This document shows, one piece after another, positions 6,395-53,076 of a stretch of 53,076 bases of DNA. A program made the translations under genes and the position numbers. The stretch covers positions 1 to 53,076 of the forward strand of contig NZ_CACZDK010000021.1 of NCBI RefSeq assembly GCF_902779965.1, in the 5' to 3' direction. Each line of letters opens with the position of its first letter. The stretch's first letter is position 1. A model generated the notes under the pieces. That model ran no database searches, was not told the origin of the DNA, and saw only the letters and a program-made list of their open reading frames with translations. This DNA comes from Fibrobacter succinogenes. GTDB taxonomy: Bacteria > Fibrobacterota > Fibrobacteria > Fibrobacterales > Fibrobacteraceae.

Positions 6395-6918
6395 CTATTT
6401 CTCGGTAGTTAAGTCCCGTCAGGTATATCGGACCCTGCGTCGCCACTCTTTGCCTGGCGTGGAATCTTTCCCGTCTTGTTCACCGCGCTTCGCCTCGGAG
6501 TCCAACCCTTGCGGGTATATGCCCCACTGGTACATTACTGAAACAAGCAACTACTTATAGCGGTCGGTTGATGTCTCTTTGAAAGGAGTGAAGTCAACCG
6601 AAAAACAAAGCTCTCCTCTTTTTAAGCTGCCGTATGGACTCGAACCACATCTCCGGCTTATTACGTCGGTGCTCTACCATTGAGCTATGACAGCGTTGTC
6701 CACGCACGGGTTCAGCAAATTACGGGAATTATTGAAATTCACATTTTTCCCCGTGCGTGGGGTGCTTCGGGCGTGGCATCAATAATGGAGAGCTTCCTAC
6801 GTCGCAGGAGCAACGATCATCCGTGTTATTGGTTGATATTGTCCTTTGATTTGGTTACTCGTCACGCCTTCGGCTTCTCCGTGGGCTAAAGTTGGGCTCG
6901 CACGGAGAAAACTTTTGT
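6395..6918 (-). other. Non-coding structured region around the tRNA
   Basis: I see no supported protein gene in these 520 bases. Besides the tRNA-like gene (6626-6694) there are three inverted repeats. CGGTTGA/TCAACCG (6565-6600) has an inner CTC/GAG pairing. CCACGCACGGG/CCCGTGCGTGG (6700-6760) has 11-bp arms. TTCTCCGTG/CACGGAGAA (6875-6909) lies directly after the stop of the Tad2-domain gene. A 38-codon leftward frame starting with MYQWGIYPQG near 6532 has no ribosome binding site. The region reads like a processed transcript spacer carrying structured RNA. Confidence 0.5.
6626..6694 (-). tRNA. tRNA-like gene, anticodon position reads AAT (Ile?), imperfect
   Basis: On the leftward strand a 69-base cloverleaf is visible: acceptor GCTGTCA with CGGCAGC (one A-C mismatch, one G-U), D arm GCTC-AATGGTA-GAGC, T arm TGTGG-TTCGAGT-CCATA. 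The anticodon stem CCGAC/GCCGG has one A-C mismatch. The loop GTAATAA places AAT at positions 34-36, nominally isoleucine, but an unmodified A34 is very unusual for bacterial tRNA-Ile, G32 is atypical and the variable loop is short. No CCA is encoded. It may be a degenerate tRNA or a tRNA mimic. Confidence 0.6.
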
Positions 6919-11656: not shown

Positions 11657-11899
11657 TTAAACTTCGAACGGGTGCTTTGGCAAGTAAGCCCAGAATGTCG
11701 GGGTCACGCTTTTTGCGTTGAAATGGTTTGAAAGCCTATATTCGAGCGGGAGCACCTGGAAGCCGAGCTTTACATCGTAATACCCGATGCAGACATCGTA
11801 ATCGACAATCATTAGAACCGTCGTGTTAGGCGTGGGGATTCTGTTAGGATCGTGCTCGTAGTCAATCCAAGTCACCATCTTTTTATGTTCTTTTGCCAT
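11657..11899 (-). CDS. Unknown early protein, 80 aa
   Basis: The product begins MAKEHKKMVTWIDYEHDPNR and has a probable beta-rich body (TTVLMIVDYDVCIGYYDVKL, WAYLPKHPFEV). The start at 11897-11899 is set by the AAGAGG leader shared with other early first genes. It is the promoter-proximal gene of the 11.9-6.9 kb recombination operon. No family recognised. Confidence 0.65.
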   Translation of the reverse strand: MAKEHKKMVTWIDYEHDPNRIPTPNTTVLMIVDYDVCIGYYDVKLGFQVLPLEYRLSNHFNAKSVTPTFWAYLPKHPFEV

Positions 11900-11904
11900 T
11901 TTTT

Positions 11905-11952
11905 CCTCTTGTTTACATGTGTAAATATACCTTAATTTTCCCATGTTGTCAA
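11905..11952 (-). promoter_or_regulatory. Strong early promoter with palindromic operator
   Basis: On the leftward strand TTGACA (11947-11952) and TATATT (11924-11929) are separated by exactly 17 bp, near the sigma-70 consensus. TTTACATGTGTAAA (11912-11925), a perfect palindrome with 6-base arms, overlaps the -10 and start site. The leader AACAAGAGG (11905-11913) carries the ribosome binding site. This should drive the recombination operon. Confidence 0.8.
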
Positions 11953-16878: not shown

Positions 16879-16899
16879 ATTTTTTCCTTTTTTTTAAAA

Positions 16900-16938
16900 T
16901 TATATAAAAAATTTATATAAAACTTTTTAAAAAGTCAA
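16900..16938 (-). promoter_or_regulatory. Replication-operon promoter with 21-bp palindrome
   Basis: On the leftward strand TTGACT (16933-16938) is 17 bp from TAAATT (16910-16915). Covering the -10 is a perfect palindrome, TTATATAAA-AAA-TTTATATAA (16900-16920). The palindrome would suit a small dimeric regulator such as the product of the first gene. Confidence 0.7.
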
Positions 16939-16939
16939 G

Positions 16940-17240
16940 AGATTGGCAGAAAAAAATTTATTTTTTTTTGAGTAGGGAAGATGCAGGGTTGGGGTAGGGT
17001 GTGGGTAGGGGGGGGTAGGGGGGGGGGTAGGGGGTTACTGGTAGGTGGGGGGCTATTACATTACATTACATTGCACATCATTACATGACATGACATTACA
17101 TTACATTACATTGCACATCATTACATGACAATCTTTTCCTTTTCTTTGTTTTTGTTTTTGTCTTTGTCTTTGTCTTTGTCCTTTTCTCACACACTGTCCT
17201 CACACTCTTCGTGCGTGAGAGAAAATTTTTTTTCACGACC
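16940..17240. other. Candidate replication origin: A/T tract, G-tract, direct repeats and pyrimidine tract
   Basis: These 300 bases have four blocks in order. An A/T-rich stretch (16950-16970) comes first. A strand-biased G-tract follows, with at least eight runs of three or more G (16985-17052), able to form a G-quadruplex. Then there are two exact 36-bp repeats at a 40-bp period (17055-17130), and finally a pyrimidine tract with TTTGTC repeats (17131-17186). No reading frame is supported. Iterons, an unwinding element and proximity to the probable initiator gene are the usual marks of an origin. Confidence 0.6.
17055..17130. repeat. Two exact 36-bp direct repeats (iteron-like), period 40
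   Basis: The 36 bases at 17055-17090 recur exactly at 17095-17130 with TGAC between them. Each contains TTACA steps (ATTACATTACATTACATTG) followed by CACATCATTACATGACA. Repetition of a short binding word within two larger identical units is typical of initiator-binding iterons. Confidence 0.85.
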
Positions 17241-17242
17241 TG

Positions 17243-17271
17243 TTGACCGCTGGCGAAAAATTTATTAAATT
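17243..17271 (+). promoter_or_regulatory. Rightward promoter of a small RNA
   Basis: TTGACC (17243-17248) and TAAATT (17266-17271) are exactly 17 bp apart on the + strand. No protein frame with a ribosome binding site follows; a terminator does, about 60-70 bp later. Confidence 0.65.
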
Positions 17272-17277
17272 GGAATT

Positions 17278-17348
17278 GTCCATTCAGGACTTTCTCCTTC
17301 TTGGCCCGGTTCGCTTGCTCCCCCTTGGCGACCGGGCTTTTTCTTTTC
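17278..17348 (+). ncRNA. Predicted small RNA beside the origin, about 70 nt
   Basis: A start near 17278 is set by the promoter 17243-17271. The end is a clear terminator: GCCCGGT (17304-17310) pairs with ACCGGGC (17331-17337), followed by TTTTTCTTTT. The loop is pyrimidine-rich (GCTCCCCCTTGG) and the 5' part contains TCTCCTTCTT. Both could pair with Shine-Dalgarno sequences, as C-rich loops do in several bacterial small RNAs. It reads against the general direction of the early arm. It might instead prime or regulate replication. The rest of 17349-17550 holds only a palindrome at 17506-17525. Confidence 0.55.
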
Positions 17349-17597: not shown

Positions 17598-17897
17598 CTA
17601 GGCTATAGCGGCTTGGTATTTTTCCAGAACGCAGTTCTCGATGTGCTCCCGGAGCTGTCGTGTAATCGGCATCACCAGCGAGCGGAAATCTTCGCCCTTG
17701 GTGTACGGGTCAACTGGATAGCCAACGTAGAGGCCGTATTCACCATCCATCACGCGAAGCCCGCGAATCTGTATCTGGTCGTTGAGTACGATCGTGGCGA
17801 GGGCCTTCATTTTGCCCATGTTTGTCCCTTCCTTGAAGGGGAACACCTGGACGTTGGTTACCGCCAGGCAGTCGAAGAAATTGTTTTCGTTTACCAT
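17598..17897 (-). CDS. spoVG: SpoVG-family nucleic-acid-binding protein
   Basis: Over nearly its whole 99 residues it matches SpoVG: VTNVQVFPFKEGTNMGKMKA, then ATIVLNDQIQIRGLRVMDGE and GYPVDPYTKGEDFRSLVMPI. SpoVG proteins are small dimers that bind DNA or RNA and act as site-specific regulators in Firmicutes and spirochaetes; phage versions are known. The CAAGAGG leader resembles those of other early genes. It is transcribed with the 122-aa gene upstream and ends at a strong terminator. Confidence 0.9.
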   Translation of the reverse strand: MVNENNFFDCLAVTNVQVFPFKEGTNMGKMKALATIVLNDQIQIRGLRVMDGEYGLYVGYPVDPYTKGEDFRSLVMPITRQLREHIENCVLEKYQAAIA

Positions 17898-17962: not shown

Positions 17963-18331
17963 TTACAGGCAGGTGCGGAGGCCGGTGGTCGTTTCGAAAA
18001 ATTCCTGCACCTGGTCTGCAAAAATGCCCTTGACTTCCTTCACCGTCACGGGCTGGAACTTCGCATCTTCGAAGCTCAAGCCCTTGATGAAGTCGTTTGT
18101 CGTGTACTTCTTCTGCTTGATGAAGTAGCAGTTGTAGAGGTCTCGACCTTCGTCAAGCTCGATCTTGAAGAGGTTCGCCTTGCGGAACATCTTGAACGAA
18201 AACTGGAAGCTGTTTTCGGTGATTTTTTCAGCCTTTGCGCCGAGCATGGCCTGGAGCCTGCCGAACCCGCCGTGGCAAATCGCCATCACCATTTCCTTGA
18301 CCATGTTGTTGATTTCTTCTTTCGTTTTCAT
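17963..18331 (-). CDS. Unknown early protein, 122 aa
   Basis: The product (MKTKEEINNMVKEMVMAICH...GLRTCL) looks alpha/beta: an N-terminal helix, a central strand-rich stretch (SFQFSFKMFRKANLFKIELD) and a C-terminal helix. No membrane segment or catalytic motif is seen. It is the first gene behind the TTGACT/TATATT early promoter and carries the shared AACAAGAGGTA leader, so it should be expressed early. Family unknown. Confidence 0.7.
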   Translation of the reverse strand: MKTKEEINNMVKEMVMAICHGGFGRLQAMLGAKAEKITENSFQFSFKMFRKANLFKIELDEGRDLYNCYFIKQKKYTTNDFIKGLSFEDAKFQPVTVKEVKGIFADQVQEFFETTTGLRTCL

Positions 18332-18336
18332 CTTTT

Positions 18337-18424
18337 TACCTCTTGTTTGTTGTTCTTTATGTCTATAATATATATAATATATAGACGCTAGTCAAGGGAT
18401 AATTACTTGTTTTTTGCTTACATT
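18337..18424 (-). promoter_or_regulatory. Early promoter with operator-like motif and upstream element
   Basis: On the leftward strand TTGACT (18390-18395), 17 bp, TATATT (18367-18372). TTATAGACATAAA lies just downstream, differing by one base from the copy at 1536-1548. The leader AACAAGAGGTA (18337-18347) gives the ribosome binding site. TTTTTGCTTACAT on the + strand (18411-18423) lies about 17 bp upstream of the -35. Confidence 0.75.
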
Positions 18425-18468: not shown

Positions 18469-19290
18469 CTATGCCGCTTTCTTTTCGGGGAGAATTTCCC
18501 AATCTTCGTAAAATCCTACGTCGAAGTAATCCACAATCGAATTGCTCTTGTTGTAGTTAAAGGAATTGACGATTTTTGTCATTGCTTCCCAGCGGTCGAA
18601 GAACTGCGCCGTGAACATCGGGGCTTCTTCGCGCTTCAATTGCCAGCCGTGGCAAATGCTGAACGGGTAGCCTTCGGTGTAACTTTCGTATTTCTTTGAC
18701 GCCCAGAGTTCAAGCGCTCTCTGCTGCTTTTCGCCAGACCAATCAAAGAACTTGCTGGAGGGTACTTCTATGCCTTCCGCGTTGTCTGGATCCTTAACCC
18801 AGCCGGAGGTAAGATAGTGGTTGTTGTTAAGGTTCATGAGCTCGTTCTTGCAATCCTCGAACGGGCGAACGTCGCCGGAGGCGATTCTGAACTTGATCGT
18901 GACATGTGGCGTGTAACCTGCCCATTTCTTCGATACGGTCACGCCCTTGATGCCGCATGCCTTCATGATTTCTCGAATTTTAACGGTCAATTCGGAACTG
19001 CTGACTCCGCTGTTGCTTCCTTCGTAGCCGCTACCGCCAAGATAGGCTTCGACTTCCTTCGTGTAGCACTTTTTCAAGATTTCTTCTTTTTCCGTTTTCA
19101 CATCGGCTACCTTGCCGCCGAGTATTTTTTCAACGGTCGAAAGTTCGGCGCGCCCATACCAGCACTTTTTCATGCCGTGCCAGCGGAACTTGATTTCCTT
19201 GAGTGCGGAACGGATTTCTTCGGAAGGCTTTTCGTCGAAGTAGATTTCCAGGCCGTTGTGCTCTGCGTTCTTGATGATTCTGTATTCCAT
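18469..19290 (-). CDS. LPD29-like polyvalent-protein domain protein, 273 aa
   Basis: The N-terminus (IYFDEKPSEEIRSALKEIKF then RWHGMKKCWYGR) resembles a small domain found in anti-restriction and polyvalent phage proteins. Residues about 100-150 (MKACGIKGVTVSKKWAGYTP, HVTIKFRI) match the LPD29 domain of large polyvalent proteins of phages and conjugative elements. Such proteins enter the cell or are made very early and often counter host defences. It has its own promoter and terminator, so it is regulated alone. The precise activity is unknown. Confidence 0.65.
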   Translation of the reverse strand: MEYRIIKNAEHNGLEIYFDEKPSEEIRSALKEIKFRWHGMKKCWYGRAELSTVEKILGGKVADVKTEKEEILKKCYTKEVEAYLGGSGYEGSNSGVSSSELTVKIREIMKACGIKGVTVSKKWAGYTPHVTIKFRIASGDVRPFEDCKNELMNLNNNHYLTSGWVKDPDNAEGIEVPSSKFFDWSGEKQQRALELWASKKYESYTEGYPFSICHGWQLKREEAPMFTAQFFDRWEAMTKIVNSFNYNKSNSIVDYFDVGFYEDWEILPEKKAA

Positions 19291-19380
19291 TTTTGAACCT
19301 CTCTTGTTTCTTGTTTACGATGTAAATGTATATAATTTATAGATGTTTTGCAAGAGGTTTTTTATTACATTTTGCTTACT
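19291..19380 (-). promoter_or_regulatory. Early promoter with operator and upstream element
   Basis: TTGCAA (19348-19353), 17 bp, TACATT (19325-19330) on the leftward strand. TTTACGATGTAAA (19314-19326) is a 13-bp palindrome overlapping the -10. The leader is AACAAGAGAGG. TTTTGCTTACT (19370-19380) lies 17 bp upstream of the -35, the same spacing as at 18.4 kb. Confidence 0.7.
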
Positions 19381-48929: not shown

Positions 48930-49441
48930 GTAGAACAAAATGCACGGTCAAAAGCGTAAAGGCTTCGCCGTTCATTACAACATCCGGTCGCCCGTTTACA
49001 TTCTTGGGTACCGCGTGTATTTCAATAGAACTGGTACGAACCTATACGGACGACAAAACCGAAAAAGCGTTGCTTAACATAAAAATTCGTCCCGGCTACA
49101 AAACGGACGGGGCAAGCACATTTTTTCCGATTTCGTTGCTTGTGCCGCAATGGGTTCCAGGTGACGACAATTACAACGCCGCCCCGGTTGCTCACGATGT
49201 GCTGTACATGCTCGGCGGTATAGTCGATGGTGTACACGAGCCCGTGAAGTTAAGCCGCGAAGAAGTGGACGACATTTTGCGCGGCGTTTGGCGTTGCTGG
49301 GGAATGTCCCGCTTTGTTGCAGGGTGCGCAGACAAGGGCGTCGAGGTTTTCGCGGGAGGAAAATATCACTGGGGCAATGATTGCTATAACGTGCGCCAAT
49401 TTGTTGATGTAAAATGGGAGGTGGCTGCATGCTCACGCTAG
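48926..49441 (+). CDS. DUF1353 protein, 171 aa
   Basis: The motif pair IRPGYKTDGASTFFP and NAAPVAHDVLYMLGG, followed by SREEVDDILRGVWR, is the DUF1353 signature; the conserved Asp, His and Asp could form an active site. DUF1353 genes are common next to phage lysis genes and have been suggested as accessory cell-wall or virion proteins. It is preceded by CTGGAGGAATT and overlaps the DUF5675 gene by 13 bp. Confidence 0.75.
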   Translation: MSRTKCTVKSVKASPFITTSGRPFTFLGTACISIELVRTYTDDKTEKALLNIKIRPGYKTDGASTFFPISLLVPQWVPGDDNYNAAPVAHDVLYMLGGIVDGVHEPVKLSREEVDDILRGVWRCWGMSRFVAGCADKGVEVFAGGKYHWGNDCYNVRQFVDVKWEVAACSR

Positions 49442-49830
49442 TCCGCTATACTCGAACAGAAACGGCCATTCTAGGCTCTCTTTACCTGAATGGTGCTTTT
49501 GTCTGCTACACGCTCGAAAACGAAGCCAAGGCGATTCCGTGCGGCATGTACACCGTGCATAACAGTAAGTCACCGAAGTTCAAGCGCGAGCTTCCGCTTC
49601 TTACTTCGGGCAAGGTAAGCGCAAGCCGCGGGATTCGTATTCACGTTGGGAACACGGCTAAGGACTCGCAGGGTTGTGTGCTCGTTGGCATGACAAGAGA
49701 GGTACACCTTCTCGGAGGCTCGAAGCTCAATGAGTCAAAGAACGCCGAGACGATGGTAACGATGATTTGCCGTAACGAATCGAATCTTGTCATTGTCGAT
49801 AACTACAAGCAGGGAATGACGGATAAATGA
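49429..49830 (+). CDS. DUF5675 protein, candidate cell-wall enzyme
   Basis: ETAILGSLYLNGAFVCYTLE, IPCGMYTVHNSKSPKF and especially RGIRIHVGNTAKDSQGCVLV match DUF5675, whose HxGN...DSxGC pattern resembles the catalytic site of L,D-transpeptidases. In phages it often stands where an endolysin would be. The start at 49429 has GGGAGGTGG; a reading five codons longer is less likely. No other lysin is visible, so it is the best endolysin candidate, with low certainty on activity. Confidence 0.75.
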   Translation: MLTLVRYTRTETAILGSLYLNGAFVCYTLENEAKAIPCGMYTVHNSKSPKFKRELPLLTSGKVSASRGIRIHVGNTAKDSQGCVLVGMTREVHLLGGSKLNESKNAETMVTMICRNESNLVIVDNYKQGMTDK

Positions 49831-50210: not shown

Positions 50211-50241
50211 AAACCAGTAGTCGGGGAGACTACAAAAAAAG

Positions 50242-50272
50242 GCCCTCGGTGGGAAACCATCGGGGGCTTTTT
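50242..50272 (+). terminator. Terminator of the late operon
   Basis: GCCCTCGGTGG (50242-50252), loop GAAA, CCATCGGGGGC (50257-50267): an 11-bp stem with two G-U pairs and a GNRA tetraloop, followed by five T. It ends the rightward late transcript 32 bp after the RusA stop. Confidence 0.9.
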
Positions 50273-50278
50273 GCGTAC

Positions 50279-50359
50279 AAAAAAAACGCTCGACAATTAG
50301 TATTGTCAAGCGTCAATTAACAAGAGGTATCAAACAATATAGTCATTGCTGATGATTGA
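50279..50359 (-). ncRNA. Predicted leftward small RNA complementary to early-gene leaders, about 80 nt
   Basis: It starts near 50359 behind a near-consensus promoter and ends at a terminator made of CGCTTGACAAT-ACTA-ATTGTCGAGCG followed by eight T on the leftward strand (50279-50312). It contains no convincing reading frame. Bases 50319-50329 encode TACCTCTTGTT, exactly complementary over 11 bases to the ribosome binding site leader AACAAGAGGTA of the early genes at 927-1514 and 17963-18331, and 9 bases to that at 11657-11899. It could silence early genes late in infection. Alternatively the segment is a decayed early leader on the + strand. Confidence 0.5.
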
Positions 50360-50394
50360 TAAATCAATATAGCAACGTAAACTTTATTTGTCAA
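50355..50394 (-). promoter_or_regulatory. Near-consensus promoter of the leftward small RNA, with palindrome
   Basis: On the leftward strand TTGACA (50389-50394), 17 bp, TATATT (50366-50371). ATTGAT-AA-ATCAAT (50355-50368) is a palindrome across the -10 and start site, so the RNA is probably regulated. Confidence 0.7.
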
Positions 50395-50444: not shown

Positions 50445-50831
50445 TCATTTGCCCGTCGAATTAGTTACGTAAACATGAAGCGGTTTAATGTCAGGTCCTT
50501 GACTTAGCACAGTACCGACAACAGCAGTGACAAAAACTAAAACAAGAAGCGCTAAAATGACGGCTATAATAGTTTCTTTTTCTGCTCTGACATGATATTC
50601 TTCGCATCCAAGTTTTTCAGCTTCCGAAATACGTTCTATTGCTTCTTTTTCAATTTCTTTTTTATCAATTCTAAAATTTTCGTTATTACGCTTCAATAGT
50701 GCGTTATCTTCTTCTAGCTGTGCTATCCTTGCATTCAGCTCGTCCGCATACTGCTTGCGCATGACGAGCGTGCTTTGAGGGTATTTGGCGTAAGCATCGC
50801 CAAGCGTCTCGAAATTGTCATTTTCTGCCAT
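50445..50831 (-). CDS. Coiled-coil membrane protein, 128 aa
   Basis: Residues 25-85 are a long coiled coil (YADELNARIAQLEEDNALLK) and residues 88-112 one membrane helix (TIIAVILALLVLVFVTAVVG), with a short C-terminal tail. The predicted topology is a cytoplasmic coiled coil anchored in the inner membrane. It is the last gene of the leftward 52.1-50.4 kb early operon. Unknown family; anchoring of phage components or superinfection exclusion are possible. Confidence 0.65.
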   Translation of the reverse strand: MAENDNFETLGDAYAKYPQSTLVMRKQYADELNARIAQLEEDNALLKRNNENFRIDKKEIEKEAIERISEAEKLGCEEYHVRAEKETIIAVILALLVLVFVTAVVGTVLSQGPDIKPLHVYVTNSTGK

Positions 50832-52140: not shown

Positions 52141-53070
52141 TCAGAAAAGAGACTGCTGGCAGTCCTTTTGTGATCCATCGTCGTAGAATCTCCCCATAAG
52201 TTCGCGGTATTCGTCCGCCGTGCCGTTGAAGTAGAGCTTTTCCTTCGTCGTAGATTTTGACGAGCCGACCGAAGCCGCCATCAACTGCGTTTTTTCAAAT
52301 TAAGCGACGCAAGTAAACGGGGCATCGTATTCACTTAAAAATGCGTTGATTTTTTAGTCTGTTTTAAGTGACTTGAAAAGGTCATAGAATCTGTCGTGAT
52401 CGAACTCAAAATCGTACTTGTTTGTACCCTTGTACGGTGGGTCGAAATAGACTACATCGAACCCCTTATAGTCGATGTCGAAGATGTCCAAGCGTTCCAA
52501 GCGTTCCAAGCGTTCCAAGCGTTCCAAGCGTTCCAAGCTCTGTAATCTTTGCACGAACTCCAATTTTTGAAGGCGTCCGTCGTCATCTTTCTTTGTCATG
52601 ATGTCAAAGAACTTTCTGTAATTGCTTCGTCTTTCGGATAATGTCGGAGCGGTAAGCATCTTTTCTGCTATCAGCTTGTAATCTTCGATTTGTTCGCCGT
52701 ACAGATACGTTTTCCCGTCGTTTCCGAAGCTCGCGCAATACTTGTTCAAGCAGTCCTGGATGTCGAAGTCGCCGTTCTCGATGCGTTGAAGGCTGTTGTA
52801 AAAGTCAACGCGAGAGCACGGTGCTGGGTGCTCGTAGTCGATTTGCCCCTTGTGTATAAGTACCGCGTCAAGCAAGGTAATCGTTGCCTTGTTCAAGTCG
52901 TTTCCGACAACGGAATCCCATTTTAGGCTCATTGCCGCCGCCATGAGGAAAGCACCGCCTCCACAGCAGGCGTCTAGTATGCGACCGCCTGGAGGTAGCT
53001 TCTTAACGATGTCCTCCGCTATCGCGGCCTTAGATCCCTTGTATGGTAAACCTAGAGTTATCTTCGCCAT
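52141..53070 (-). pseudogene. D12-class DNA adenine methyltransferase interrupted by two in-frame TAA codons
   Basis: Motif I is ILDACCGGGAFLMAA and the catalytic motif IV VVYFDPPYKGTNKYD, the order of D12/Dam-type N6-adenine methyltransferases. The frame stops after LFKSLKTD (TAA 52354-52356), but the same frame goes on with INAFLSEYDAPFTCVA, a second TAA (52300-52302), and FEKTQLMAAS followed by TTKEKLYFNG to a stop at 52141. The continued part is the normal D12 C-terminus (SEY-aP and KEKL words) and ends CQQSLF, a clamp-binding-like peptide. The full frame is 310 codons. The protein may be truncated, made by readthrough, or dead. Confidence 0.8.
52488..52538 (-). repeat. 9-bp tandem repeat inside the methyltransferase gene
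   Basis: CCAAGCGTT is repeated five times (52488-52532) with a partial sixth copy. On the coding strand each unit encodes Leu-Glu-Arg, giving a charged helical spacer between two methyltransferase motifs. The 9-bp unit keeps the frame, so copy number can change without breaking the gene. Confidence 0.95.
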
Positions 53071-53076
53071 AAGTCA
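52978..53076. repeat. 99-bp terminal direct repeat, right copy
   Basis: Identical to 1-99. It covers the first codons of the methyltransferase and its upstream bases; counted once, the circle is 52,977 bp. Confidence 0.9.

Follow-up and report, generated by a model that had tools for sequence, protein, structure and literature searches.

The window, by which we mean the entire 53,076-nucleotide stretch of DNA analysed, is one contig of a 4.09-Mb bacterial genome assembly comprising 76 contigs, and carries genes for terminase, portal, tail sheath, tape measure and baseplate proteins. An exact direct repeat of 99 bases is present at both ends (1–99 and 52978–53076), indicating a circular assembly and a phage genome of ∼52 977 bp. 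Neither an integrase nor a repressor was detected among the proteins scanned, which represent part of the total. On the circle, a rightward block extends from 19326 to 50210 and a leftward block from 19290 across the junction to 50445. The latter encodes RecT, a single-strand binding protein, SpoVG and methyltransferases and, judging from this gene content and its position, is presumably the ‘early’ block. It also contains a tRNA gene (6625–6694, minus strand; Rfam RF00005) and an intergenic stretch (16879–17100) in which the leftward strand shows recurring TGTAATG units and long runs of C. The SpoVG-family protein of this block (17598–17897, minus strand; Pfam PF04026) is preceded by a variant, ATCAAGAGGAA, of the early leader described below, and homologous DNA of its gene was found in relatives.

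The locus studied here sits where the two blocks converge, and consists of a promoter, a short gene-free interval and a terminator, all directed leftward, as the original prediction had stated. The promoter (50366–50394, minus strand) reads TTGACA-17-TATATT with a TG before the −10 box and agrees with the consensus at 11 of 12 bases. Sites of the form TTGACA-N16..18-TATATT occur twice in the whole window against 0.01 expected, the second one, again with a spacing of 17, being located upstream of the early gene 11657–11899. The intrinsic terminator (50279–50314, minus strand) is composed of a 13 bp stem with five G-C pairs and a loop of four (50285–50314), followed by T8; the terminator itself was thus correctly foreseen, whereas the stem of 11 bp ascribed to it was a slight undercount. 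About 45 bases, devoid of any gene, separate the two elements. The window contains a single instance of a promoter with at least 11 of 12 consensus bases followed by a strong terminator within 130 nt, and 100 Markov surrogates gave none. The intrinsic terminator is likely to end the leftward early block as well, and a second stop for leftward transcripts is provided by a two-sided terminator (50234–50274, both strands), which marks the late/early block boundary and is conserved in relatives.

The predicted small RNA (50279–50360, minus strand), the start of which was deduced from the promoter and the end from the T-run, would be ∼80 nt long and comprises a weak 5′ hairpin, an exposed anti-leader segment and the terminator. 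Its fold is strong (z = −5.4), mostly owing to the terminator. In the folding analysis, the core of the anti-leader segment UUUGAUACCUCUUGUUAAUUG (50314–50334, minus strand) was unpaired with a probability of >0.9, and ACCUCUUGUU, placed between the weak 5′ hairpin and the terminator, was free with a probability of at least 0.9. The promoter palindrome noted earlier is indeed present, as a 12 bp sequence TTGATTTATCAA at 50356–50367 that overlaps the downstream promoter end, but an operator role finds no support in the frequency of such sites, which is not above chance (two in the window versus 2.3 expected, with one mismatch allowed). The overlap of this palindrome with the start site could point to a protein-binding promoter element, and an ATG-initiated frame of nine codons with a stop inside the RNA (MTILFDTSC) could point to a peptide-encoding unit; as such palindromes are at chance level in the window and the ATG lacks a preceding ribosome-binding site, we regard both as very improbable.

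The anti-leader segment is complementary to the leaders of early genes located elsewhere in the window. As predicted, TACCTCTTGTT is the exact complement of AACAAGAGGTA at two early genes (1520–1530 and 18337–18347), with shorter matches of nine bases at 11905–11913 and of eight bases before the gene 18469–19290. With the leader of gene 927–1514, 19 of 21 positions are complementary (50314–50334 versus 1515–1535; CAATTAACAAGAGGTATCAAA versus CAATAAACAAGAGGTAACAAA), so that the match originally reported as 17 of 20 was real but understated. Pairing energies with the 21-mer seed were −21.1 kcal/mol for this leader, −17.7 kcal/mol for the leader of 18469–19290 (19291–19311), −16.7 kcal/mol for that of 17963–18331 (18332–18352) and −13.5 kcal/mol for that of 11657–11899 (11900–11920), all on the minus strand, the last being proposed as a weaker target. 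The interaction prediction suggested for all leaders was carried out with 82 predicted starts, and the top four by pairing energy of the 21-mer seed, the boundaries of which had been set after the match was known, were exactly these four promoter-proximal early leaders. All four directly follow promoters that, as read from the sequence, belong to the TTGnnn-17-TAnATT class.

The energy summed over the best four leaders was reached by none of 1000 dinucleotide and one of 1000 mononucleotide shuffles, although the four targets are not independent, since the early leaders resemble one another. When the whole 5′ part was used instead of the seed, duplex energies with the leaders were no better than those of shuffles; complementarity of the accessible segment to distant mRNAs thus exceeds chance with the seed but not with the whole 5′ part. 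The 11-mer match is weak when taken alone, because 5.7% of shuffled 46-mers contain an 11-nt complement to some leader (n = 82). A best 21-nt match of at least 18 positions was obtained with three of 5000 shuffles, seven of 5000 genomic 46-mers and 23 of 1500 GC-matched 46-mers. Furthermore, a search of 80 host-genus genomes located the 18-mer ACAAGAGGTAACAAAATG in this phage and nowhere else.

Bacterial small RNAs such as RoxS and mmgR (Rfam RF00519) pair with Shine-Dalgarno sequences through an exposed pyrimidine-rich stretch. These are host-encoded, C-rich anti-Shine-Dalgarno RNAs, whereas the RNA predicted here is phage-encoded, and no match to RF00519 was obtained with the 50.3-kb RNA. 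A second cassette of the same architecture is located at 17243–17345 (plus strand), with a TTGACC-17-TAAATT promoter, an exposed CUUUCUCCUUCUU and a C-rich terminator loop. It scored 21.7 bits with RF00519, far below the threshold of 41 bits. Seeming host homologues of this cassette were situated inside coding genes and were dismissed as chance matches. The exposed sequence of the second cassette is a general anti-Shine-Dalgarno stretch, and its leader complementarity was not above chance. This would be in line with a reading in which the 50.3-kb RNA is real but acts mainly on host mRNAs or another RNA, its leader match reflecting a general anti-Shine-Dalgarno character; the segment does resemble the anti-Shine-Dalgarno tail, and among known phage RNAs PreS, for one, targets mRNAs of the host (PMC12197685). 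The complementarity of the segment, however, continues on either side of the Shine-Dalgarno core, and among the 82 predicted starts the early leaders of the phage rank first, so that we consider such a reading quite unlikely.

We favour, with a confidence a little better than even, the interpretation that 50360–50279 (minus strand) specifies a phage small RNA which occludes the ribosome-binding sites of the early operons and serves as a co-expressed brake. Host RNA polymerase would transcribe the ∼80-nt RNA from its own near-consensus promoter, beyond the last leftward early gene, and the intrinsic terminator would end it. In the cell, the single-stranded ACCUCUUGUU together with flanking bases would then pair in trans with the 5′ leader AACAAGAGGUA shared by the four promoter-proximal early operons, and by covering the Shine-Dalgarno sequence would lower their translation. 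For the central proposal of the original prediction, a short RNA whose sequence complements the ribosome-binding leader found on several early mRNAs, support comes from the anatomy of the unit, the ranking of the leaders and the anti-leader RNA of relatives (see below). The early-to-late switch proposed along with it is not supported, as the promoter shares the TTGnnn-17-TAnATT class with the early-operon promoters and no sign of late timing was seen; a promoter of early class fits better with a co-expressed brake, i.e. damping or feedback, than with a late switch.

Searches for homologues of the 50.2–50.45 kb segment revealed none in the genome of the window (itself apart) or in 60 related genomes, and none was found in phage records for the stretch around it. 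The loci fetched showed the conserved terminator and short pattern matches, and otherwise no homologue of the segment. Contigs retrieved by DNA patterns were rejected, as they share just 17–22 bases with it, and pattern matches in genome contigs came from unrelated bacteria. The neighbouring gene 50445–50831 has no relative in IMG/VR. The two-sided terminator 50234–50274 is kept in seven IMG/VR phages; beyond it, where readable, leftward genes follow at once and the promoter-RNA segment is absent, as it also is from contigs found via the neighbouring gene 49414–49830. One relative (G089, a 20-kb fragment) carries the leader AACAAGAGG before two genes, and yet the segment is missing at its junction. 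The 50.3-kb RNA corresponded to no Rfam family, including c4, at the curated threshold, the best weak match being His_leader with 29.5 versus 49 bits. As far as visible from the sequences at hand, the promoter-RNA segment thus appears specific to this phage.

This lack of conservation would also suit a different origin, in which the plus-strand AACAAGAGGTA copy is an early-leader duplicate that has been displaced and is decaying, with the terminator belonging to the leftward early operon and the promoter being fortuitous or unimportant. The identity of 19 of 21 positions, ending just before the start codon, has the look of a copied leader, and the terminator is placed where the leftward block ends. 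On the other hand, the plus-strand copy has neither an early-type −10 box in front nor a gene remnant behind. In the relatives read, no plus-strand gene, which the original prediction had named as the sign of a decayed leader, is present at this position. Moreover, a decayed leader accounts for the origin of the 19/21 match but not for its framing by a near-consensus promoter and a terminator on the opposite strand, and we consider it unlikely. An inverted leader copy is at the same time a plausible origin for an anti-leader RNA such as the one we propose.

Phages sharing the leader were found with the early protein 18469–19290 as query, which yielded L124 (record G092) and L125 (record G093); a pattern scan added L132. 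In these three IMG/VR phages, a TTGAC-...-TATATATAG promoter and the leader AAAACAAGAGGTAACAAAATG precede several early genes, the leader sequence common to them and the window phage being AACAAGAGGTAACAAAATG. Each carries a three-hairpin RNA of ∼150 nt with a closing T-run (L126 10929–11083, minus strand; L129 14593–14740, minus strand; L132 867–1017, plus strand), in all three cases downstream of a small gene and just upstream of an early promoter. In all three, hairpin 1 has a large loop complementary to the leader, and in two of them doubly so. In G093, the loop GTTACCTCTTAAAACGTACCTCTTGTTTTA offers 13 nt complementary to AAAACAAGAGGTA and 10 nt complementary to AAGAGGTAAC, and in G092 the loop has diverged with 12 nt kept (TTTTGTTACCTC versus GAGGTAACAAAA). 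The two loop modules together were equalled in 0, 0 and 1 of 5000 shuffles. Four base pairs are changed on both sides with pairing kept, as judged from three sequences, two of which were found by pattern or leader neighbours. The three-hairpin RNA matched no Rfam family at threshold. The corresponding model, R1, matched nothing in 61 genomes of the genus and nothing at 50.3 kb, which indicates that the RNA of the relatives is not a sequence homologue of the segment in the window; its sole match in the window (17258–17346, E = 0.17) fell on the cassette at 17243–17345.

It is evident from the comparison that phages with this leader possess sequences which, judged by their complementarity, are directed against it, and that, as in the window, these follow early genes and are oriented in the early direction. 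We put forward, more tentatively than the function of the single RNA and as a possibility we rather doubt, that this phage lineage uses one standard early leader and brakes the whole regulon with dedicated, independently built anti-leader RNAs, in some members a three-hairpin RNA and in this phage a short promoter-terminator unit.

Phage antisense RNAs that block a ribosome-binding site are already known. In P1 and P7, the c4 antisense RNA blocks the ant mRNA in the region of the ribosome-binding site, and the sequences that pair are probably located in loops (PMC12197685). The loop RNA found in relatives (L126, L129 and L132) is most alike to c4 in proposed action. c4 has this one target, whereas one segment of the window fits four early leaders. 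In length (∼70–80 nt), phage origin and the proposed repression of phage genes by pairing, the RNA predicted here resembles sar of P22 (68/69 nt), which pairs with ant mRNA, and OOP of lambda (77 nt), which pairs with cII (PMC12197685). Each of these acts on one phage mRNA, in contrast to an RNA that fits several and is encoded away from its proposed targets. VpdS of VP882 and PreS of lambda act in trans (PMC12197685), as we propose for the RNA of the window, but they do so with Hfq and with host RNAs involved, while the targets proposed here are early leaders of the phage itself. Most of the phage antisense RNAs covered by that review either silence a single phage gene or have host RNAs as their targets (PMC12197685). 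What would be new, provided that the RNA is expressed, is one RNA against the leader of several early operons. The early programme as a whole would then be set post-transcriptionally by one leader-recognizing RNA, and phage gene expression would become addressable through it in a group of bacteria for which few genetic tools exist. The three-hairpin RNA with its anti-leader loop represents a directly testable RNA family absent from Rfam.

A promoter/terminator scan of relatives, serving to find candidates only, detected a further cassette in four late-region relatives (G069, at L107 4150–4230, G078, G082 and G068), in a similar intergenic setting. It consists of a TTGACG-17-TATATT promoter, followed by an RNA part with UGUUCUCCUUUUGUAGGUUUUUCGCUUUG (UGUUCUCCUUUUGUAGG...) and a terminator with the loop UCCUCC. 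The RNA part is identical in the four relatives and the flanks vary, but as G068 and G078 are near-identical over the stretch shown, these amount to about three independent sequences. No leader matching this cassette was found in those relatives, and target pairing is unsupported there. Two other structured elements were observed in the phages with the three-hairpin RNA. At L132 500–630, a structured stretch (GGTGGTGCCCATCCAAGTTAAGAAACGCTCC ... TTTTTTTT) precedes the small gene that lies before the three-hairpin RNA, and is similar in the other two. At L126 13284–13364 and L129 16978–17063 (both minus strand), a TTGAC-16-TATATT promoter is followed by a pseudoknot-like RNA (ACCACC ... GGGTGGTGCC), the helices of which differ between the two by matching changes.
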